Positions 3,469-13,513 of a stretch of 64,000 nt of DNA are shown piece by piece. This DNA is from an uncultured Eubacteriales bacterium (GTDB lineage: Bacteria; Bacillota; Clostridia; Christensenellales; Aristaeellaceae). The stretch is from the NCBI GenBank assembly GCA_902799045.1, contig CADBZH010000017.1, positions 21,058 to 85,057 of the forward strand, read 5' to 3'. A program made the translations under genes and the position numbers. The notes beneath the pieces are model-generated. The model was not told where the DNA came from and made no database searches. It worked only from the letters and a program-made list of their open reading frames with translations. The number at the start of each line of letters is the position of its first letter. The first letter of the stretch is position 1.

Positions 3469-4151
3469 TTGCCGGTCACCTCCTCAGACTTGACGCAGGC
3501 CTTGGCGCAGTTGGCGCACACGCCGTCGCAGCCGCTCTCCACCAGCTTGCGCTGGCGCGTCTTGATGCCCAGGGCGTTCATCACCGCGATGATCAGGGCG
3601 ATGATGAGGAACGCTCCCGGAGGCTGCACGAAGATGCCCATCGGCTCGACGCCGGCCGGCAGGAAGGGGACGCCGAAGGCCGTGCCGTTGCCCAGCGCCT
3701 CGCGCAGCAGGCCGGCCAGGGTCAGCGCCAGCGTGAAGCCCAGGCCCATGCCCACGCCGTCCATCACGGAGAGCAGGGGGGTGTGCTTGTTGGCGTAGGC
3801 CTCCGCGCGGCCCAGGATGATGCAGTTCACGACGATCAGCGGGATATAGATGCCCAGGGCCGTGTACAGCGAGGGCAGGTAGGCCTCGATCAGCAGCTCC
3901 GTCACCGTCACCAGCGAGGCCACCACCACGATGTAGGCCGGCAGGCGCACCTGGTCCGGAATGACCTTGCGCATCAGGCTGATCACCAGGTTGGACAGGA
4001 TCAGCACCGCCGTGGTGGACAGGCCCATGCCGATGCCGTTCATCGCCCGGGTGGACACGGCCAGCGTCGGGCACATGCCCAGCATCAGTATCAGCGTCGG
4101 GTTTTCCTTCACGACGCCGTTGTACAGGCGTTCGAGGTATTTGTTCATCAC
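3465..4151 (-). CDS. rnfE: Rnf complex membrane subunit RnfE
   Basis: A 228-residue membrane protein homologous to RnfA. The hallmarks are the early ENPTLILMLGMCPTLAVSTR segment and the later VVNCIILGRAEAYA segment, each with the conserved Cys. About six helices are visible. The last 30 residues add a Cys-rich tail (GCDGVCANCAKACV, four Cys) beyond the usual fold, as seen in some clostridial RnfE; it might bind metal, which is inference. It overlaps both the preceding rnfDG (4 bp) and the following rnfA (4 bp). Confidence 0.94.
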   Translation of the reverse strand: MMNKYLERLYNGVVKENPTLILMLGMCPTLAVSTRAMNGIGMGLSTTAVLILSNLVISLMRKVIPDQVRLPAYIVVVASLVTVTELLIEAYLPSLYTALGIYIPLIVVNCIILGRAEAYANKHTPLLSVMDGVGMGLGFTLALTLAGLLREALGNGTAFGVPFLPAGVEPMGIFVQPPGAFLIIALIIAVMNALGIKTRQRKLVESGCDGVCANCAKACVKSEEVTGK

Positions 4152-5722
4152 TCGTTGCCTCCCTTCACCACATTCTGGAAGAAGTCGAGGGCGGCGTTCA
4201 CGGCGTTCACCACGGCGCCGGAGGTGGTGCTCGCGCCGGAGATCGTGTCGATCTGCTCCGGCTCGGTGGAGCCGCCAGCCTTGTTCAGCACGAAGGCGCT
4301 CACGGCCTTGCCGGCGAACTGGGCCTTGAATTCCGGCTCGTCCACCCGCATGCCCATGCCGGCGGTCTCGTGCAGCTCGGTAAAGGCGATGCCGTTCACG
4401 GTGCCGTCGGTGGAGAGGCCCACGGCGAAGGTGATGTTGCCGTCGAAGCCGTCGGCGGTGGTGACGCTGATGGCATAGCCCACGGGCTCGCCCGCCGCGT
4501 CCGCGCCGACATACACTTCATTGATGGTGCTGCGGCCGAAGCCGGTGCCGTACACCGCGCCGCCCAGGTCCGCCACGGCCTGATCCAGCGCCGCGTCGCT
4601 TTCGATGCGGTCCGCCTCCGGCACGACCGCCTGGTAGGAGGCCGCCCGCGCCGCGCGGTTCTGCTCGTCGATGGTGTCCTTCGTCATGGAGTAGACGCCG
4701 GACAGCGCCAGGCCTGCCACCAGCGTGATCACGGTCAGCACCACCACGGGGCGGGGGATCCGCTGGGACAGCGGCACCTTGCCCTCGCGCCGCACGGCGT
4801 TGCGCCGGAAGGCGAAGGGCTTCGGGATCACGTAGGTGTCGATCAGGGGGGTGAACAGGTTGGCGATGATCACGGAATAGCTGAACGAATCCGCCGCGCC
4901 GCCCTTGATGCGGAACAGCGCGCCCAGCACGCCGATCAGCGCGCCGTAGACCGCCTGGCCGAGCTTGCCGACGGGGCTGGTCACGTAGTCGGTGGCCATG
5001 TAGAACGCGCCCATCACCACGCCGCCGCCGCACAGGTGGGCCAGCAGGAACTTCCAGTCGAAGCCCTGGCCGCCGAACAGCGCCATGAACAGCGTGAACG
5101 CGCCCAGCACGGAGAAGCAGATCTGGCCGTGGATGATGTCCAGCGCCCACAGCACCAGGCCGCCCGCCAGCAGCGCCAGCACGGAGCCGCCGATGACGCC
5201 GCTGGCCGTGCCGAGGAACATCTTCGAGATGTCCACGGCCTGGCCGGCCTTCATCATCGCGACCGGCGTGGCCGAGGACACGCCGTCCACCATCTGGAAG
5301 GTGGACATCGTGCGCCCGAAGGAGATCAGCAGGAAGCAGCGGGCTGCCAGCGCGGGGTTGACGAAGTTCTTGCCCAGGCCGCCGAAGCAGCACTTCACCA
5401 CGATGATGGCGAACACGCTGCCGATGACCGGCATGCTCAGCGGCACGGTGGGCGAGAGGGAGAGTGCCAGCATCAGCCCGGTGACGACGGCGCTGCCGTC
5501 CTTCCAGGTGTCAGGCTTGTGGCACAGCTTGTCAAAGGCGAATTCGGCGCCCACGGCCGCCGCCACCGCCAGCAGCACCACCAGCAGCGCGTGCAGGCCG
5601 TTGACGGCCACGCCCACGACGGTCGCCGGGAGCAGCGAGAGCGCGACCACGCGCATGATGAACCCGGTGGTCCATTTGTCCCGCGCGTGGGGGCTGGAGG
5701 AGAGGTTCAACGCGGTGTTCAC
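4148..5722 (-). CDS. RnfD-RnfG fusion protein of the Rnf complex
   Basis: One uninterrupted 524-residue frame encodes two subunits that are normally separate. Residues 1 to about 315 are RnfD: many membrane helices and the covalent-FMN motif SSATP (149-153, Thr152). Residues about 325-524 are RnfG: one membrane helix (about 328-345), a periplasmic FMN-binding domain, and the flavinylation motif DTISGASTTSGA near the C-terminus (492-503, probable FMN-Thr500). The linker is short (RREGKVPLSQRIPRP). Two covalent FMNs would therefore sit on one chain. It overlaps rnfC and rnfE by 4 bp each. The order C-DG-E-A-B equals the standard rnfCDGEAB order, so the fusion arose by loss of the D/G boundary. 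Confidence 0.92.
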   Translation of the reverse strand: MNTALNLSSSPHARDKWTTGFIMRVVALSLLPATVVGVAVNGLHALLVVLLAVAAAVGAEFAFDKLCHKPDTWKDGSAVVTGLMLALSLSPTVPLSMPVIGSVFAIIVVKCCFGGLGKNFVNPALAARCFLLISFGRTMSTFQMVDGVSSATPVAMMKAGQAVDISKMFLGTASGVIGGSVLALLAGGLVLWALDIIHGQICFSVLGAFTLFMALFGGQGFDWKFLLAHLCGGGVVMGAFYMATDYVTSPVGKLGQAVYGALIGVLGALFRIKGGAADSFSYSVIIANLFTPLIDTYVIPKPFAFRRNAVRREGKVPLSQRIPRPVVVLTVITLVAGLALSGVYSMTKDTIDEQNRAARAASYQAVVPEADRIESDAALDQAVADLGGAVYGTGFGRSTINEVYVGADAAGEPVGYAISVTTADGFDGNITFAVGLSTDGTVNGIAFTELHETAGMGMRVDEPEFKAQFAGKAVSAFVLNKAGGSTEPEQIDTISGASTTSGAVVNAVNAALDFFQNVVKGGNE

Positions 5723-7068
5723 TTCTTGGCGCCCCCTTCCGCGCGCTTGCGCGCCAGTATTTCAGACTTGGTTTGCTTGAACGTCTGCATCAGCGGCCGC
5801 TTGGCCGGGCAGATGTAGGTGCAGGAGCCGCATTGGATGCACTCCAGGCCGTAGAGCCGCGTCTCATAGCGCTTCAGATCGCCCATCAGCACGGCCTCGG
5901 CCATCAGCTGGGGCAGCAGGCCCACCGGGCACACCGTGGTGCAGCGCCCGCAGCGCAGGCAGGACGTGCGCTGCAGCTCGGCCTTCTCGTTCGGATCGTC
6001 CGCCAGCAGCGTCAGGCCGTTGTTCTGCTTCTGGATCGGCACGTCCAGGCTGGACAGGGCGATGCCCATCATCGGGCCGCCGGCCAGCGCCTTTTTGAGG
6101 GTCACGCCCGCCTTGACGCCGCCCGCGGCCTCCAGCAGCTCTGCAAAGCTGGTGCCGTCGCGCACGATGTAGTTGCCGGGGTTCGCCGCCGCCTCGCCGG
6201 AGAGGGTGAGGCACTGGGAAAACAGCGGCTCGTTGTACAGCGCGGCGCGCTGGATGGCGTAGAGGGTGCCCACGTTGTCCACGATGCAGCCCACGTCCGC
6301 CGGCAGCTTCGACAGCGGGAAATCCACGCCGGCGATGGCCTGGATCAGGCTGCGCTCGCCGCCCTGGGGATACTTGGTCTTCATGGCCTGCACCCGCACG
6401 CGGCTCTTGCCGGAGGCCGCGCCCTGCATGGCGGCGATGGCCTCGGGCTTGTTGTCCTCGATGGCGATGACGCCCTCGGCGTTGGGGAACAGCCTGAGCG
6501 TCAGCTCCAAGCCCTCGACGATCTCGGCGGCCCGGGTGCGCATCAGCTGGTCGTTGCCGGTCAGGTAGGGCTCGCACTCCGCGCCGTTGGCGATCACGAA
6601 GCGGATGGCCTGCGGATCGCGCGGCTTCAGCTTCACGTGGGTGGGGAAGCCCGCGCCGCCCAGGCCGACCACGCCGGCGTCCTGCACGCGCTGGAGGATC
6701 TCGTCGTTGGTGACGGCGGAGGGCTCCTGGCGCCGGCCAAAGCCCTCCATGGGCGTGAACTGGCCGTCGTTGTCCACCACGATGCACTCCATCATGCCGC
6801 CGGTCAGCACCCGCCGCTTCTCCACGGCCTTCACCGTGCCGGAGCAGGAGGACGCGATGTGGGCGGAGACGAAGCCGTCCGCCTCGGCGATGCGCTGGCC
6901 CACCAGCACGGCGTCGCCCTTCTTCACGATGGGCTTGGCGGGCTTTCCGATGTGCTGCGACAGCGGAAAGACCATTTCGCCCGTGGGCAGGAATTCGCGC
7001 AGCGGCATTTCCCGGCTCAGCTCCTTGCGGCCCGCCGGATGCACTCCGCCACGAAAGGTGTCCTTCAA
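5719..7068 (-). CDS. rnfC: Rnf complex NADH/ferredoxin-side subunit RnfC
   Basis: A 449-residue soluble subunit that binds NAD(H) and FMN and docks on the membrane complex. Visible are the N-terminal TFRGGVHPAGRKEL opening, the SCSGTVKAVEKR barrel-sandwich region, the GLGGAGFPTHVKL nucleotide site, the NGAECEPYLTGND segment, and two C-terminal [4Fe-4S] motifs CLRCGRCTTVCP and CIQCGSCTYICP. I choose the TTG at 7068: it has a GGGGAG ribosome site 9 bp upstream and starts exactly where family members start. An upstream in-frame TTG at 7113 would add 15 unconserved residues without a good site. First gene of the rnf-nrfA-resB operon. Confidence 0.93.
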   Translation of the reverse strand: MKDTFRGGVHPAGRKELSREMPLREFLPTGEMVFPLSQHIGKPAKPIVKKGDAVLVGQRIAEADGFVSAHIASSCSGTVKAVEKRRVLTGGMMECIVVDNDGQFTPMEGFGRRQEPSAVTNDEILQRVQDAGVVGLGGAGFPTHVKLKPRDPQAIRFVIANGAECEPYLTGNDQLMRTRAAEIVEGLELTLRLFPNAEGVIAIEDNKPEAIAAMQGAASGKSRVRVQAMKTKYPQGGERSLIQAIAGVDFPLSKLPADVGCIVDNVGTLYAIQRAALYNEPLFSQCLTLSGEAAANPGNYIVRDGTSFAELLEAAGGVKAGVTLKKALAGGPMMGIALSSLDVPIQKQNNGLTLLADDPNEKAELQRTSCLRCGRCTTVCPVGLLPQLMAEAVLMGDLKRYETRLYGLECIQCGSCTYICPAKRPLMQTFKQTKSEILARKRAEGGAKK

Positions 7069-7138
7069 GTTCCTCGACTCCCCTCGTCCTATATTTTTGA
7101 AATGTGCTATCAACCCATATTAGCGATGGTATACAAAT

Positions 7139-7263: not shown

Positions 7264-7311
7264 AACAGTTAATCAGGGCGTTTACGCCCAATGAAAAGAG
7301 GGGGAGAGATC

Positions 7312-9162
7312 ATGGCACTGGACTATCGCAAGTGCGCGGAGGAGATCGCCGCCAATATCGGCGGGGGCTCCAATGTCATCAGCGCGGCACACTGCGCGAC
7401 CCGGCTTCGACTCGTCATTGCCGACAACAGCAAGGTGAACAAGGAGGTGCTGGAGAACATCGACGGCGTGAAGGGCATGTTCGAATCCAACGGACAGCTC
7501 CAGCTGATCATCGGCACCGGCACCGTGAACAAGGTCTACGACGAATTCCTGTCCGTCACGGGCGCGTCCGCGGCCAGCAAGGCCGACGTGAAGGCCGCCG
7601 CGGCCAGCAAGATGCCGTGGTGGAAGAAGGTGTTGAAGACGCCGGGCGACGTGTTCGTGCCGATCCTTCCCGCCATCGTGGCCTCCGGCCTGATGATGGG
7701 CATCGTGGAGGCCATCCCGAAGTTCTGGCCCGCCTTCGGCACCAGCGACTGGTATGCCTTCCTGGACCTCGTGGCCAACACGGCCTTCGCGCTGCTGCCG
7801 GTGCTGGTGGCCATTTCCGCCGCCCGCGTGTTCGGCGGCAACATCTTCCTCGGCGGCGTCATCGGCCTGATGATGGTGCATCCGGCGCTGATCAACGCCT
7901 GGACCGTGGGCAACTATGCCGCCGGAGAGATACCAACCTGGCATCTGTTCTTCTTCAACGTCCAGCAAGTGGGCTACCAGGGGCACGTGATCCCGGTCAT
8001 ACTGGCGGTGCTCCTGATGAGCATCATTGAAAAATGGCTGCACAAGAAGGTGCCCGAGATGATCGACCTGTTCGTCACCCCGCTGGTGACGGTGCTGGTC
8101 ACCTCCTTCGTCACCTTCACCATCATCGGGCCCGTCTTCTCCATCCTGGAGAACTGGGTGCTGACCGGCGCGAAGTGGCTGGCCAGCTCGCTGTTCGGCT
8201 CCGTGGTCATGGGCGCGCTCTATCCCTGGACGGTCGTCATGGGCCTGCACCACATGTACAATGTCATCGAGGCGGGCATGATCGCCCAGACCGGCCTGAA
8301 CACCTGGATGCCCATCGCCTCCGCGGCGAACTTCGCCCAGTTTGGCGCGTGCCTGGCGGTGGCGCTGAAGGTGAAGAACCAGAAGACCAAGTCCGTGGCG
8401 CTGCCCTCGTCGCTGTCCGCTTCGCTGGGCATCACCGAGCCGGCCATCTTCGGCATCAACTTCCGCTTCATGAAGCCCTTCATCTGCGGCATGATCGGCG
8501 GCGCGGTGGGCTCGCTGTTCGGAAGCCTGTTCAAGCTGGGCGCGCCCGTCTACGGCGTCACCGGCATTCCCGCCATCCCCGCGGTGAACAACGTTCCGCT
8601 GTATCTGGTCCAGCTGCTGATCTCCGCGGGCGTGGCCTTCGCGCTGACCACGATCATCTGGAAGGAAGACGCGCCGAAGCCGGTCACGGCGGCGGGCCCG
8701 GCGGTGCAGCCGGCGAAGATCGAGGCCCCGACGGTTTCGGTCATCCGCTGCGCCAACGGCACGGTGCTGCAGCCCGTGAAGGGCAATGTCATCCCCTACG
8801 ACCAGATCCCGGACGACACCTTCGCCTCCGGCGTGCTGGGCGTGGGCGTGGGCGTGCAGCCGACGGACGAGGTGGTCGTCGCGCCCTTTGACGGCGAGAT
8901 CAGCTCCGTCGCGGACAGCAAGCACGCCGTGGGCCTCTCCGCCAACGACATGGAGCTGCTGATCCACGTGGGCGTGGACACCGTGGCCATGAACGGCGAC
9001 GGCTTTGAGTGCCTCGTCAGCGAGGGCGACCAGGTGAAGGCCGGCCAGCCGCTGATCCGCTTCAGCCGCGAGAAGATCAGGGCCGCCGGCTACAGCGACA
9101 CCGTGGCCGTGCTGCTGACCAACTCCGACGACCTCGACGGCGTGGAGTACGGGGCAAAGTGA
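7312..9162 (+). CDS. PTS sugar permease EIIBCA, sucrose/beta-glucoside superfamily
   Basis: A 616-residue three-domain permease that imports and phosphorylates a sugar. EIIB is N-terminal with phospho-Cys28 (AAHCATRLRL). EIIC spans about 105-455 with ten or so helices and the sucrose/trehalose-type segment VGYQGHVIPVILAV. EIIA (Crr type) is C-terminal, with phospho-His552 (ELLIHVGVDTVAMNGDGF). The EIIC pattern looks closest to sucrose-type permeases (ScrA), but no sucrose-6-phosphate hydrolase is nearby, so the substrate is open. The start is the ATG at 7312, with GGGGGAG 5-6 bp upstream, not the in-frame ATG at 7291. It is followed by genes for enzyme I and HPr, giving a complete phosphorelay in one cluster. 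Confidence 0.9.
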   Translation: MALDYRKCAEEIAANIGGGSNVISAAHCATRLRLVIADNSKVNKEVLENIDGVKGMFESNGQLQLIIGTGTVNKVYDEFLSVTGASAASKADVKAAAASKMPWWKKVLKTPGDVFVPILPAIVASGLMMGIVEAIPKFWPAFGTSDWYAFLDLVANTAFALLPVLVAISAARVFGGNIFLGGVIGLMMVHPALINAWTVGNYAAGEIPTWHLFFFNVQQVGYQGHVIPVILAVLLMSIIEKWLHKKVPEMIDLFVTPLVTVLVTSFVTFTIIGPVFSILENWVLTGAKWLASSLFGSVVMGALYPWTVVMGLHHMYNVIEAGMIAQTGLNTWMPIASAANFAQFGACLAVALKVKNQKTKSVALPSSLSASLGITEPAIFGINFRFMKPFICGMIGGAVGSLFGSLFKLGAPVYGVTGIPAIPAVNNVPLYLVQLLISAGVAFALTTIIWKEDAPKPVTAAGPAVQPAKIEAPTVSVIRCANGTVLQPVKGNVIPYDQIPDDTFASGVLGVGVGVQPTDEVVVAPFDGEISSVADSKHAVGLSANDMELLIHVGVDTVAMNGDGFECLVSEGDQVKAGQPLIRFSREKIRAAGYSDTVAVLLTNSDDLDGVEYGAK

Positions 9163-9262: not shown

Positions 9263-9298
9263 AAATCAAATAAACACATCGAAAGGAGTAAAAAGCAA

Positions 9299-10978
9299 AT
9301 GATTTCCATCCAGGGCAAAGGTGTATCCACCGGCGTGGCGATGGGTCCGCTCTATTTCTACACCCGCGCCAAGAGCACCATCCGCCGCATCAAGGTGACG
9401 GACACCGAGGCCGAGTGGGGCCGCTTCAAGGCCGCCCAGGCCAAGGCCATCGAGCAGCTGGGCGAGCTGTATGAAAAGGCGCTGGCCGAGGCCGGCGAGG
9501 AGGCCGCCATCCTGTTCGAGACCCACCAGATGATGGCCGAGGACGACGACTATGTGGAGTCCATCGAAAACCTCATCAAGGAGGACAAGCTGAACGCCGA
9601 GGCCGCCGTGACCGACACCGCCGCGCAGTTTGCCGACATGTTCGCCCAGATGGACGACGCCTACATGCAGGCCCGCGCCGCGGACGTGAAGGACGTGTCC
9701 GGCCGCATCATCGGCATCCTGACCGGCGTGGTGCAGGGCGGCATCGATTCCGACGTGCCCGTGGTGCTGGCGGCGGACGACCTGGCCCCCAGCGAGACCG
9801 TGCAGCTGGACAAGGCCAAGATCCTGGGCTTCATCACCGAGGGCGGCAGCGGCTCCAGCCACACCGCCATACTGGCCCGCACGATGGGCATTCCCGCCAT
9901 CATCGGCGTGGGCAAGCAGCTGAAGGAGGAGTATGAGGGCCGCGAGGTGATCGTGGACGGCTCCACCGGCGGCATCGTCATCGACGCCGACGAAGCCACC
10001 CGCAACGTGATGATGGCCAAGCGCGAGGAGCAGCTGAAGCAGCGCAAGCTGCTGGAGCAGCTGAAGGGCCAGGAGAACATCACCCGCGACGGCCAGAAGA
10101 TCCGCGTCTACTGCAACATCGGCAATCCCGAGGACGTGTCCACCGTGCTGTCGAACGACGGCGGCGGCGTGGGCCTGTTCCGCTCGGAGTTTCTGTACCT
10201 GAACTGCTCGGACTATCCTTCCGAGGACTATCAGTTCGAGGCCTACAAGCAGGTGCTCTCCGACATGGGCGACAAGGAGGTCATCATCCGCACGCTGGAC
10301 ATCGGCGCGGACAAGCAGATCGACTACTTCCAGATGCCCAAGGAGGAGAACCCGGCGCTGGGCAACCGCGCGCTGCGCATCTGCCTGAACCGGCCGGAGA
10401 TCTTCAAGACCCAGCTGCGCGCGCTCTATCGCGCCTCCGCCTACGGCAAGCTCGGCATCATGTTCCCGATGGTCACCAGCGTTTGGGAGGTCAAGGAAGC
10501 CAAGAAGCTGTGCGAGGTCGTGAAGAAGGAGCTGGACGCCGAGGGCAAGCCCTACAGCCCGGACGTGGAGATTGGCATCATGATCGAGACCCCCGCCGCG
10601 GCGGTGATGAGCGACCGGCTTTCCAAGTTGGTGGACTTCTTCTCCTGCGGCACCAACGACCTGACTCAGTATACGCTGGCCTGCGACCGGCAGAACAACG
10701 ACCTGGGCCGCTTCTTCAACCCCCACCATCCGGCCGTGCTGCGCCTTTTGAAGATGGTGTGCGACAACGCCCACAAGAACGGCGTGTGGGTCGGCATCTG
10801 CGGCGAGCTGGGCGCCGACCTGGAGCTGACGGAGACCTTCCTCTCCATCGGCATCGACGAGCTGTCCGTCTCCCCGCGCAGCGTGCTGCCGCTGCGCCAG
10901 AAGATCCGCGAGACCACCGTCTCCGCCGTGAAGGAGAAGGTCCTGGCGGACCTGCTGGGGGATGGAAACGCGATCTGA
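9299..10978 (+). CDS. ptsI: PTS enzyme I (phosphoenolpyruvate-protein phosphotransferase)
   Basis: This 559-residue cytoplasmic enzyme takes phosphate from PEP and passes it to HPr. Phospho-His188 lies in GGSGSSHTAILAR, matching His189 of E. coli. The PEP-binding segments DIGADKQIDYF and EENPALGNRALR, the FFSCGTNDLTQYTLACDR region and the acid/base Cys501 (GICGELG) are all present. The ATG at 9299 has GAAAGGAG 10 bp upstream; an open frame extends further upstream but only through repeat DNA. It is flanked by the EIIBCA gene and the HPr-LDH fusion on the same strand. Confidence 0.96.
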   Translation: MISIQGKGVSTGVAMGPLYFYTRAKSTIRRIKVTDTEAEWGRFKAAQAKAIEQLGELYEKALAEAGEEAAILFETHQMMAEDDDYVESIENLIKEDKLNAEAAVTDTAAQFADMFAQMDDAYMQARAADVKDVSGRIIGILTGVVQGGIDSDVPVVLAADDLAPSETVQLDKAKILGFITEGGSGSSHTAILARTMGIPAIIGVGKQLKEEYEGREVIVDGSTGGIVIDADEATRNVMMAKREEQLKQRKLLEQLKGQENITRDGQKIRVYCNIGNPEDVSTVLSNDGGGVGLFRSEFLYLNCSDYPSEDYQFEAYKQVLSDMGDKEVIIRTLDIGADKQIDYFQMPKEENPALGNRALRICLNRPEIFKTQLRALYRASAYGKLGIMFPMVTSVWEVKEAKKLCEVVKKELDAEGKPYSPDVEIGIMIETPAAAVMSDRLSKLVDFFSCGTNDLTQYTLACDRQNNDLGRFFNPHHPAVLRLLKMVCDNAHKNGVWVGICGELGADLELTETFLSIGIDELSVSPRSVLPLRQKIRETTVSAVKEKVLADLLGDGNAI

Positions 10979-10984
10979 TGTTTT

Positions 10985-11098
10985 GATTGAGGGATCAGGG
11001 AGTAGGGAGTAGGGAGTAGGAATAGCTGCTGCCGCGCATACTAACGGCATCTTCTGCACGGAAAACGCGGCAGCCCCTACTCCCTGCTCCCGCTTCAA
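10985..11098. repeat. GA/CT-armed palindrome with GCGGCAG core
   Basis: The left arm is GGGAGTAGGGAGTAGGGAG-like, followed by GCTGCCGC; the right arm is GCGGCAGCCCCTACTCCCTG. The outer arms and the inner GCTGCCGC/GCGGCAGC pair are both complementary, so the spacer after ptsI can fold into a long hairpin. The copy at 14463 has the same GCGGCAG core. Confidence 0.65.
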
Positions 11099-11128
11099 AA
11101 CCACCATTTGCAAGGAGCCAAACCAACC

Positions 11129-12430
11129 ATGACCACCATCACCTATGAAGTCACCGGCCCGCTGGGGCTGCACGCCCGACCGGCGGCGTTCCTGGCGCAG
11201 ACCTGCGTGAACCTTACCTCGCAGATCACCGTGAAGTATGACGGAAGGACCGCCAGCGGCTCGAATGTGCTGGAGCTGCTGGCGCTGCACGCCGGAAGGG
11301 GCGCGATGCTGGAGATCAGCGCCGAGGGCGGCGACGAGCGGGCGGCGCTGGACGAGATCAACCGGGTGCTGCGGGAGAAGCTGTGGGACCGGAACAAGAC
11401 CCGTCTGCTGCGCATCGCCTTCTTCGGCACGAAGGATTATGACCGGCTGTTCTTCAGCGAGCTGGCAAAGGACCGGGGCGCGGGCACCTACAACTGCGAC
11501 ATCCGCTATTTCAACTGCCGCCTGACGCCGGAGACGGCGAACCTGGCCCGGGGCTACGACGCGGTGTGCGTGTTCGTGAACGACGAGCTGCCCCGGGCGG
11601 CGGTGGAGACGCTGCGCAACGGCGGCGTGCGGCTGATCCTGCTGCGCTGCGCCGGCTTCAACAACGTGGATCTGCAGGCCGCGAAGGAATGCGGCATCAA
11701 GGTGGCGCGGGTGCCGGCCTATTCGCCCTACGCCGTGGCCGAGCACGCGATGAGCCTCATCATGACGGCCAACCGCCGGCTGCACAAGGCCGTGAACAAG
11801 GTGCGCGACAACAACTTCTCCCTCTCCGGCCTGCTGGGGCTGGATCTGCACAACAAGGCGGCGGGCATCGTCGGCACCGGCAAGATCGGCGTCTGCATGG
11901 CCCGCATCTGCAAGGGCTTCGGCATGACCGTGCTGGCCTGGGACGCCTACCCGAACCGGGCGCTGGAGGAGGAGGGGCTTCTGAGCTACGTGCCCCTGGA
12001 GGAGCTGCTGGAGCGGGCGGACCTGATCTCGCTCCACGCGCCGCTGATCGAAGGCCCGAACGGCACCTGGCACCTGATCGACGAGCGGGCCATCGCCCGC
12101 ATGAAGGACACCGCCATGCTGGTGAACACCGCCCGAGGCGGCCTGATCGACACCGAGGCGCTGATCGAGGCGCTGAAGAACGGCAAGTTCCACGCCGTGG
12201 CGCTGGACGTGTACGAGGGCGAGGACGCCAACGTGTACACCGACCGGTCCGACGAGTTCCTGAACAACGATATCACGGCGCGGCTGCAGATGTTCCCCAA
12301 CGTGGTGCTCACCAGCCACCAGGCCTTCTTCACCCGCGAGGCCCTGCAGGCCATCGCCGCCGAGACGCTGGAAAACGCCCGTCGCTTCAACGAGGGGGCG
12401 GACCTGGGCGCGGCGGAGTGCAAGGCGTGA
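11129..12430 (+). CDS. HPr domain fused to D-lactate dehydrogenase
   Basis: One continuous 433-residue frame joins two complete proteins. Residues 1-88 are HPr with phospho-His15 in LGLHARPAA, the site that enzyme I phosphorylates. The position equal to regulatory Ser46 is Asn46 (SGSNVLELLAL), so control by HPr kinase should be absent. Residues about 93-433 are a D-2-hydroxyacid dehydrogenase close to LdhA: the NAD site GIVGTGKIGVCMARICKGFG, and catalytic Arg336 (TARGG), Glu363 (DVYEGE) and His397 (TSHQAFFT). The expected reaction is pyruvate + NADH to D-lactate. The ATG at 11129 has AAGGAG 11 bp upstream. It directly follows ptsI, where a plain ptsH would be expected. The domain calls are firm; physical coupling of sugar uptake to lactate formation is inference. 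Confidence 0.93.
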   Translation: MTTITYEVTGPLGLHARPAAFLAQTCVNLTSQITVKYDGRTASGSNVLELLALHAGRGAMLEISAEGGDERAALDEINRVLREKLWDRNKTRLLRIAFFGTKDYDRLFFSELAKDRGAGTYNCDIRYFNCRLTPETANLARGYDAVCVFVNDELPRAAVETLRNGGVRLILLRCAGFNNVDLQAAKECGIKVARVPAYSPYAVAEHAMSLIMTANRRLHKAVNKVRDNNFSLSGLLGLDLHNKAAGIVGTGKIGVCMARICKGFGMTVLAWDAYPNRALEEEGLLSYVPLEELLERADLISLHAPLIEGPNGTWHLIDERAIARMKDTAMLVNTARGGLIDTEALIEALKNGKFHAVALDVYEGEDANVYTDRSDEFLNNDITARLQMFPNVVLTSHQAFFTREALQAIAAETLENARRFNEGADLGAAECKA

Positions 12431-12690
12431 GGAGGGAGGAGTTGTGGTTCAAATCCCTTCGGGATTTGTCGAATTGAATGAGTCCCGGATTGCCACGGCC
12501 CTGCGGGCCTCGCAATGACGCGGTCATGTGCCGACGCACCATTCCTGCAGGCGTGAAAGATGAGAGCAAAGCCACGTCATTGCGAGGAGGGCCCAGGCCC
12601 GACGTGGCAATCTGGTTTCCCCTGAATTCTGAAATCCGAAGGATTTCTTCCACAACTCCTCCTCCTCGCTCCGGCCTTCCAAAGTATACG
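12431..12690. repeat. Nested palindrome: GA/CT arms around GTCATTGCGAGG-type repeats
   Basis: From outside to inside: GGAGGGAGGAGTTGTGG pairs with CCACAACTCCTCCTCC; AAATCCCTTCGGGATTT faces AAATCCGAAGGATTT; and GATTGCCACGG..CCTCGCAATGACG faces CGTCATTGCGAGG..GACGTGGCAATC. The layers are symmetric about about 12555. The element fills nearly all of the gap between the HPr-LDH fusion and the Dabb gene. No coding signal seen. Confidence 0.75.
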
Positions 12691-13019: not shown

Positions 13020-13165
13020 CCGAGGGCGAAGCGATCGCGTCCGACCTCGCTTCGTTCGCTGACGGAATGTACAGATCTTTCGCTTCGCTCAGGATAACAG
13101 GGATCGCGATGCGTTGTCATCCTGAGCGAAGCGATGTTGCAATCTGCTCCTCCGGCTTTCGCATC
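13020..13165. repeat. CTTCGCT..CAGGATAACA-type palindromic repeat
   Basis: AGATCTTTCGCTTCGCTCAGGATAACA faces TTGTCATCCTGAGCGAAGCGA about 25 bp later (imperfect inverted repeat). Further complementary pieces flank it (CGAGGGCGAAGCGATCGCG and CGACCTCGCTTCG). Related copies lie at 31450 and 52220, and a fragment at 45523. The DNA from 13166 to 13248 shows no gene. Confidence 0.65.
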
Positions 13166-13277: not shown

Positions 13278-13304
13278 GCCACCACAGTCGAATACCGCAA
13301 TTAA

Positions 13305-13468
13305 AGGATAGAGGCGCAGCTGTCATCAGTAAGCCCCGGCGCGCAAGGCTTCGCAGGCCGTTGCCGGGAACGAAAGGGGCCGCTGCCGAAGGGAAGGGAG
13401 CGCGAGCCCGGCCCTGGGCAAACGGACAACATCCGTTTGACTGCCGCACCAGCGGAGCGCTATGGATT
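13305..13468 (+). promoter_or_regulatory. Lysine riboswitch (L box) upstream of dapA
   Basis: The conserved L-box elements appear in order: GATAGAGGCGCAGC, then ATCAGTAAG, GGGGCCGCTGCCGAAGGGA, a CTGGG segment, the small hairpin ACGGACAACATCCGT followed by TTGACTGC, and the closing AGCGGAGCGCTATGG. It binds lysine and represses downstream lysine-pathway genes when lysine is plentiful. It sits directly upstream of dapA-dapB-dapH. Confidence 0.9.
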
Positions 13469-13513
13469 AATTGTGATTTCCCAGGTCGGGCTGCGTCCGG
13501 CGCGGGAACCACA

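Follow-up and report, generated by a model that had tools for sequence, protein, structure and literature searches.

An HPr domain joined to an LdhA-type D-lactate dehydrogenase recurs among gut and rumen bacteria and may serve as a built-in PTS sensor

The window analysed here, a 64,000-nucleotide stretch of contig CADBZH010000017.1 from an uncultured Eubacteriales bacterium, carries a gene for a PTS EIIBCA permease, an enzyme I gene and an open reading frame in which HPr is joined to a D-lactate dehydrogenase (LDH) (Table 1). The EIIBCA matches TIGR01996 and TIGR01995 with scores under their cut-offs, and the enzyme I (EI) gene is the only EI match (PF05524, one match) in its genome, which is about 93% complete. 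The start codon of the fusion is preceded by AAGGAG and lies 150 nt beyond the end of the enzyme I gene; as this gap holds a palindromic repeat, co-transcription of the two genes is plausible. Further palindromic intergenic repeats occur around the fusion gene and its neighbours (12435-12662 and 13080-13134). Elsewhere in the window, a lysine riboswitch (RF00168, 71.5 bits; 13301-13470, forward strand) stands ahead of dapA, followed by dapB, and on the reverse strand an ORF at 4148-5722, located directly after the RnfC gene (5719-7113, reverse strand), joins, within a single frame, a membrane part of the NQR2/RnfD type to an FMN-binding part resembling RnfG, a possible RnfD-RnfG fusion.

Table 1. 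Features of the HPr-LDH locus, in coordinates of the window.
Feature	Position	Strand	Evidence
PTS EIIBCA permease, sucrose/beta-glucoside-like	7291..9162	+	PF02378, PF00358, PF00367
Enzyme I (ptsI)	9296..10978	+	TIGR01417, 604 bits
Palindromic intergenic repeat, enzyme I/fusion gap	10976..11106	.	Inverted repeats I1, I4, I6, I7
HPr-LDH fusion ORF, 433 aa	11129-12430	+	Single uninterrupted frame, ATG start
HPr domain (PTS-HPr, PF00381), residues 1-84, His15/Arg17 kept, Asn46	11129..11380	+	Pfam, E 8.5e-20
Linker, residues 85-93 (nine residues), variable	11381..11407	+	Column identity and structure model
LdhA-type D-lactate dehydrogenase, residues 94-433	11408..12427	+	Pfam, PDB sequence matches, Foldseek

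The protein is comprised of a complete HPr and a complete LdhA-type D-lactate dehydrogenase in one chain. Pfam places PTS-HPr at residues 4-82 (E 8.5e-20), 2-Hacid_dh_C (PF02826) at 208-399 (2.9e-48) and 2-Hacid_dh (PF00389) at 122-425 (3.1e-28), all above the curated cut-offs. The HPr part reaches 71 bits with PF00381 (cut-off 23) and 63.1 bits with TIGR01003 (cut-off 47.9), and scores below the cut-offs of the phosphocarrier equivalogs PRK13780 and PRK10850. Its partner is a 2-hydroxyacid dehydrogenase and Pfam finds no second PTS phosphotransfer domain, which places the protein outside the multiphosphoryl transfer proteins. The LDH part contains an NAD motif (249-254) with Asp272, and Arg336, Glu365 and His397, to which we assign the catalytic roles of the family. 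Its nearest solved structures are D-LDHs: a sequence search aligns it with nearly the full length of those of E. coli, P. aeruginosa and F. nucleatum (E 8.3e-97 to 1.9e-95). With an AlphaFold model as query (mean pLDDT 87.1, pTM 0.79), Foldseek recovered these enzymes as well, with a best E of 3.8e-38 and 45-48% identity for the top-ranked chains. In this model residues 85-93 form neither helix nor strand, and pLDDT is 74 at residues 81-90. The NCBIfam D-LDH equivalog PRK12480 scores 187.4 bits against a cut-off of 579, the VanH models likewise stay below cut-off, and the E. coli LdhA subfamily name is absent among the best 25 of 31 NCBIfam families. Pfam and the alignment thus bear out the preliminary description of this DNA, in which HPr was considered complete with His15 and with Asn at position 46, and the LdhA-like part complete with its catalytic residues.

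A search of genome contigs retrieved 183 stretches encoding relatives, and the best 80 of these 183 encode the full fusion in every case, with 66-91% identity to that of the window and alignments starting at residue 1 (n = 77) or residue 8 (n = 3). The reading frame through the HPr/LDH joint is open in all of these best 80 of 183 loci, which establishes the joint as real. Although many of the loci are contigs of metagenome-assembled genomes, isolates also carry the fusion: Sharpea azabuensis, S. porci, Eggerthia catenaformis, Floccifex porci, Faecalibacillus faecis, Faecalibacillus intestinalis and [Clostridium] spiroforme. Within the genus of the window the in-frame fusion is present in six of 25 genomes, its own genome included, and a seventh (G013) encodes it in two frames, its copy (L011) being broken by a frame change within the HPr part. 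Another 16 genomes of the order gave no fusion (0/16), and a larger sample of this order gave two among 396, both of the same genus. Three of 398 genomes in a phylum sample carry the fusion. It is also present in 70 of 294 genomes sampled from the Sharpea order, where four fragmentary cases were found in addition (G729, G699, G685 and G698), and in 13 of 397 in the family of the genome with locus L103, whose record is titled Lachnospiraceae; in these 70 and 13 genomes, too, the joint is read without interruption. Family labels of fusion loci are record titles throughout. The fusion is thus not confined to one assembly, and a D-lactate enzyme joined to the HPr phosphate carrier is apparently common to many gut and rumen bacteria.

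The phosphotransfer residues of HPr and the catalytic residues of LDH are strictly retained. In the 115 distinct fused proteins compared, the window's own excluded, Gly13, His15, Arg17 and Pro18 of HPr and Arg173, Glu205, His206, Asp272, Arg336, Glu365 and His397 of LDH are invariant; His15, Arg17 and Pro18 are likewise present in 81 of 81 aligned fusion sequences. The regulatory Ser46 of Gram-positive HPr is absent from the window's fusion and from 114 of the 115 others, in which position 46 is Asn (110), Asp (3), Glu (1) or Ser (1). The sole Ser46 case (L181, genome G987) is 58% identical to the window's fusion and has a long HPr branch. Mean column identity in the 81-sequence alignment amounts to 66% for residues 1-85, 42% for 84-93 and 84% for 94-426. 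Within HPr, conservation is higher at the positions that we assign to the EI/EII docking face, as PTS background and not from a structure (0.83), than at the remaining positions (0.62), with a permutation p of ~0.002 in a comparison that pools buried core and surface positions. Of 18 close pairs picked by hand, one was saturated; in the other 17, Nei-Gojobori dN/dS of the HPr part ranged from 0 to 0.42. That of the LDH part ranged from 0.01 to 0.23, and the HPr value exceeded the LDH value in 13 of 17 pairs. The HPr part is thus maintained by purifying selection, less strictly than the LDH part.

A tree of 142 LDH parts, built by a quick method without bootstrap, places all 112 fused rows and the frame-broken L011 in a single clade (SH-aLRT 99); two far rows, L019 and L021, attach to the tree as long branches. 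The record titles within the clade are mixed and include Lachnospiraceae, Oscillospiraceae, Erysipelotrichaceae, Coprobacillaceae and others. This tree, together with the position of the window's genus as an island in its own order in the samples used here, points to movement of the fusion between lineages and families. Just outside the fused clade, at an unresolved fork, are two genomes in which HPr and LDH are separate genes (G769, locus L182, and G1087, locus L183). Their LDHs are the nearest unfused LDHs (63-64% identical to the fused LDH), and each is preceded by an HPr gene (PF00381, E 1.8e-22 and 6.8e-23) that ends 102 nt (L182) or 80 nt (L183) before it and encodes Cys where the fused HPr has Pro18. 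Behind the pair, both genomes have a similar large ORF (382-387 aa), which by eye only looks like a regulator. In an HPr tree, which leaves out L214 as too short, a branch with a support of 93/75, not starred, separates the paired HPr and 27 sampled fused HPr domains from 43 other HPr sequences, a grouping that we take as a hint and not as firm. Most simply, an HPr-LDH gene pair would have been fused once, and a single fusion event agrees with the LDH tree; the gene pair of L182 and L183 could also be read, not firmly, as a later split of the fusion.

The genomic surroundings were compared by tblastn of the window's own EI and EIIBCA against the best 80 of the 183 loci. The preliminary description had placed the fusion in a PTS operon, which is correct for the window, where EIIBCA and EI lie upstream, and for three further loci (L025, L027 and L028). 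The flanks of the remaining 77 of the 80 gave neither an EI nor a like EIIBCA; of the 80 loci, 65 have at least 2 kb of sequence upstream and 54 on both sides, so that some neighbours lie outside the view. A PTS operon as the general rule is thereby rejected, and the EIIBCA-EI-fusion operon is best regarded as a local arrangement of one genus. Outside these loci the neighbours vary by group, and ten flanking genes annotated in six loci belong to no PTS family by Pfam. A lactate permease cluster adjoins the fusion in nine of the 80 loci, which supports a role of the fusion in lactate metabolism. The permease lies at 4298-5884 (reverse strand) in L078 and at 4311-5861 (reverse strand) in L098, with PF02652 confirmed in both, and the cluster is also found in L053, L059, L066, L080, L085, L094 and L104, mostly divergent from the fusion. 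A second 2-hydroxyacid dehydrogenase-like stretch, 31-33% identical, is located directly downstream of the fusion in L070, L076, L082 and L086.

The expectation that carriers would lack a separate ptsH was not borne out: another HPr-family gene was present in all 22 carriers tested, and we therefore reject the fusion as a ptsH replacement. A separate HPr with His15 was seen in 21 of these 22, the one inspected in G055 having Ala15; in the window's genome the canonical ptsH was found only as two truncated pieces on contigs C45 (at the contig edge) and C34. Position 46 of the separate proteins was compared in a table of 31 matches, from which L133 was excluded as a fusion, in which two matches end before this position, and to which L004 contributed none. 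The ordinary ptsH has Gln46 in five carriers of the window's genus and Lys46 or Arg46 in carriers titled Lachnospiraceae or Clostridiales, some of which also have extra Ser46 proteins, several of them without His15. An HPr with Ser46 alongside the fusion was seen only in eight Erysipelotrichales-type loci inspected. The replacement of Ser46, which had been singled out earlier, therefore stands as an observation, but not as a signature of the fusion, the contrast holding only in these eight loci. Crh is an HPr paralogue that has Ser46 and lacks His15. The fusion resembles it as an HPr-fold paralogue accompanying another HPr gene and is at the same time its mirror image, keeping His15 and lacking Ser46 in 114 of 115 cases. 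Carrier genomes also encode HPr-like proteins resembling Crh, in which Ser46 goes together with Glu, Asp or Ala in place of His15 (L105, L110, L125, L128, L129 and L131).

Exactly one EI was found in each of 18 carriers tested. EI is near-universal in the Sharpea order sample (278 of 294 genomes), so its co-occurrence with the fusion says little; two carriers of the full-length fusion in this sample, G515 and G593, gave no EI match. Of 22 carriers searched for L-LDH (TIGR01771), 16 gave no match, among them the window's genome, five gave one over the cut-off and one gave one below it. As the only further match to the fusion in the window's genome is a 34% partial one, the fusion is the only lactate dehydrogenase recognised there by the L-LDH search and the search with the fusion.

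No description of HPr joined to lactate dehydrogenase was found in the literature searched, most subscription papers being outside its scope, which agrees with the statement in the preliminary description that no characterised protein has this architecture. HPr fusions surveyed in the accessible part of PMC2405797 join HPr to EIIA and/or EI, and the word 'dehydrogenase' has no occurrence in that part of the text. Multiphosphoryl transfer proteins, FruB/FPr and DhaM resemble the fusion in that HPr is a domain within a larger chain, but their partners are PTS phosphotransfer domains (PMC2405797, in part), whereas the partner here is a fermentation enzyme. The LdhA-type D-LDHs, which are tetrameric and allosteric (E. 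coli, P. aeruginosa and F. nucleatum; PDB 3wx0, 5z20 and 5z21), align with the fusion over almost the whole chain and share its catalytic residues, but an N-terminal HPr domain is missing from the matched PDB chains (329-358 aa); their known regulation is by pyruvate, fructose 1,6-bisphosphate (FBP) and metal ions, and the F. nucleatum and P. aeruginosa enzymes are activated by FBP (PMC4230899, in part). A parallel is offered by free HPr, the unphosphorylated form of which activates E. coli glycogen phosphorylase, so that the phosphorylation state of HPr controls a metabolic enzyme as proposed here (PMC1156936, in part); free HPr regulates in trans, whereas fused HPr would act in cis, with one sensor per enzyme subunit. 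The fusion is made of known domains in a seemingly new, conserved pairing. Annotation pipelines presumably see both domains, and a description or test of the pairing appears to be missing.

We propose that the fusion is a D-lactate dehydrogenase that carries its own PTS sensor, in which the phosphorylation state of His15 controls the LDH in cis, a reading to which we give close to an even chance. The HPr domain would dock on enzyme I as free HPr does, and His15 would be phosphorylated when PEP is plentiful and no sugar arrives; sugar flow through the PTS would drain the phosphate and leave His15 bare, and this state would be relayed via the short linker to the catalytic domain. Since bare HPr means active uptake, the bare form would most likely be the active one and the phosphorylated form less so, a sign of control that we guess on physiological grounds. 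An increase in PTS sugar influx would then raise lactate formation and NADH re-oxidation before metabolites have built up, and the speed of sugar entry may thus act as a direct switch of lactate fermentation. The loss of Ser46 would shield the HPr domain from HPr kinase, if such a kinase acts in the hosts. The wider proposal, that enzyme I switches the D-LDH through His15 and that the module has been passed between Bacillota gut lineages as a single trait of lactate producers, is put forward tentatively, as falling somewhat short of an even chance.

That enzyme I sets the state of His15 and thereby tunes LDH is suggested by the allostery of some LdhA-type enzymes and by the activation of an E. 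coli enzyme by free HPr. A role as sensor or actuator for the enzyme best explains why the phosphohistidine is always kept and always joined to one enzyme in hosts that already have HPr, and the additional HPr-family gene in every carrier tested argues that fused HPr is unneeded as a general carrier. Also in favour are the invariance of His15, Arg17, Pro18 and the LDH catalytic residues, the conservation of the docking face, the low dN/dS of HPr, the single EI in all 18 carriers tested, and the HPr gene before the nearest unfused LDH in two genomes, with an LDH tree compatible with one fusion event. Against the sensor reading count the higher dN/dS of HPr than of LDH in 13 of 17 pairs, the Cys in place of Pro18 in the paired HPr genes, the lack of a detected EI or like EIIBCA near 77 of 80 loci, and the two full-length carriers without an EI match.

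The fused HPr might instead be a working phosphocarrier for particular EIIs, with LDH attached for a fixed ratio and no cross-talk between the domains. The complete retention of the phosphotransfer residues would agree with this, as would the EIIBCA and EI genes preceding the fusion in the window and in L025, L027 and L028, but we consider it unlikely given the further HPr-family gene in 22 of 22 carriers, the 77 of 80 flanks in which a search covering EI and window-like EIIBCA, not other kinds of EII, found neither, and the lack of PTS families among the ten annotated flanking genes (0/10, six loci). A role of proximity, the idea of the preliminary description, in which HPr would bring LDH to enzyme I, or to the membrane at EII, and LDH would reduce the pyruvate at the site where EI releases it, is distinctly improbable. 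EI yields one pyruvate per phosphate and HPr docks on it, and the EI gene is adjacent in the window and in three other genomes; however, HPr docks only transiently, pyruvate diffuses quickly and has a second source in pyruvate kinase, and 77 of 80 loci showed no EI gene next to the fusion. Control of LDH by phosphorylation of His15 would fit better than this hand-over of pyruvate. Equally doubtful is HPr as a binding module for another protein, or as an aid to folding or oligomerization, with His15 kept for docking and not for phosphorylation: the dN/dS excess over LDH in 13 of 17 pairs would allow a domain under looser constraint, but the invariance of His15 and Arg17 across families points at phosphotransfer chemistry. 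An error of sequencing or assembly, or a functionless fusion that arose recently by chance, for which the frame-broken copy in G013 might speak, can practically be discounted in view of the same fusion in the best 80 of 183 loci, isolates among them, its presence in the Sharpea order (70 of 294 genomes) and in the family of L103 (13 of 397), and purifying selection.

If HPr controls LDH as the sensor reading has it, sugar uptake and a fermentation end product would be hard-wired in one chain, and HPr fusions would extend from parts of the PTS relay to central metabolism. All the evidence gathered on the fusion is sequence-based, and one published expression study probably bears on it. D-lactate producers are of importance in the rumen: the D-lactate dehydrogenase gene of S. 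azabuensis was highly expressed, 12-fold up, in sheep with low methane output (PMC5069950, in part). As the fusion (L067) is the only match at E <= 1e-60 in the S. azabuensis genome, the gene expressed in these animals is probably the HPr-LDH fusion. S. azabuensis also has an L-LDH.
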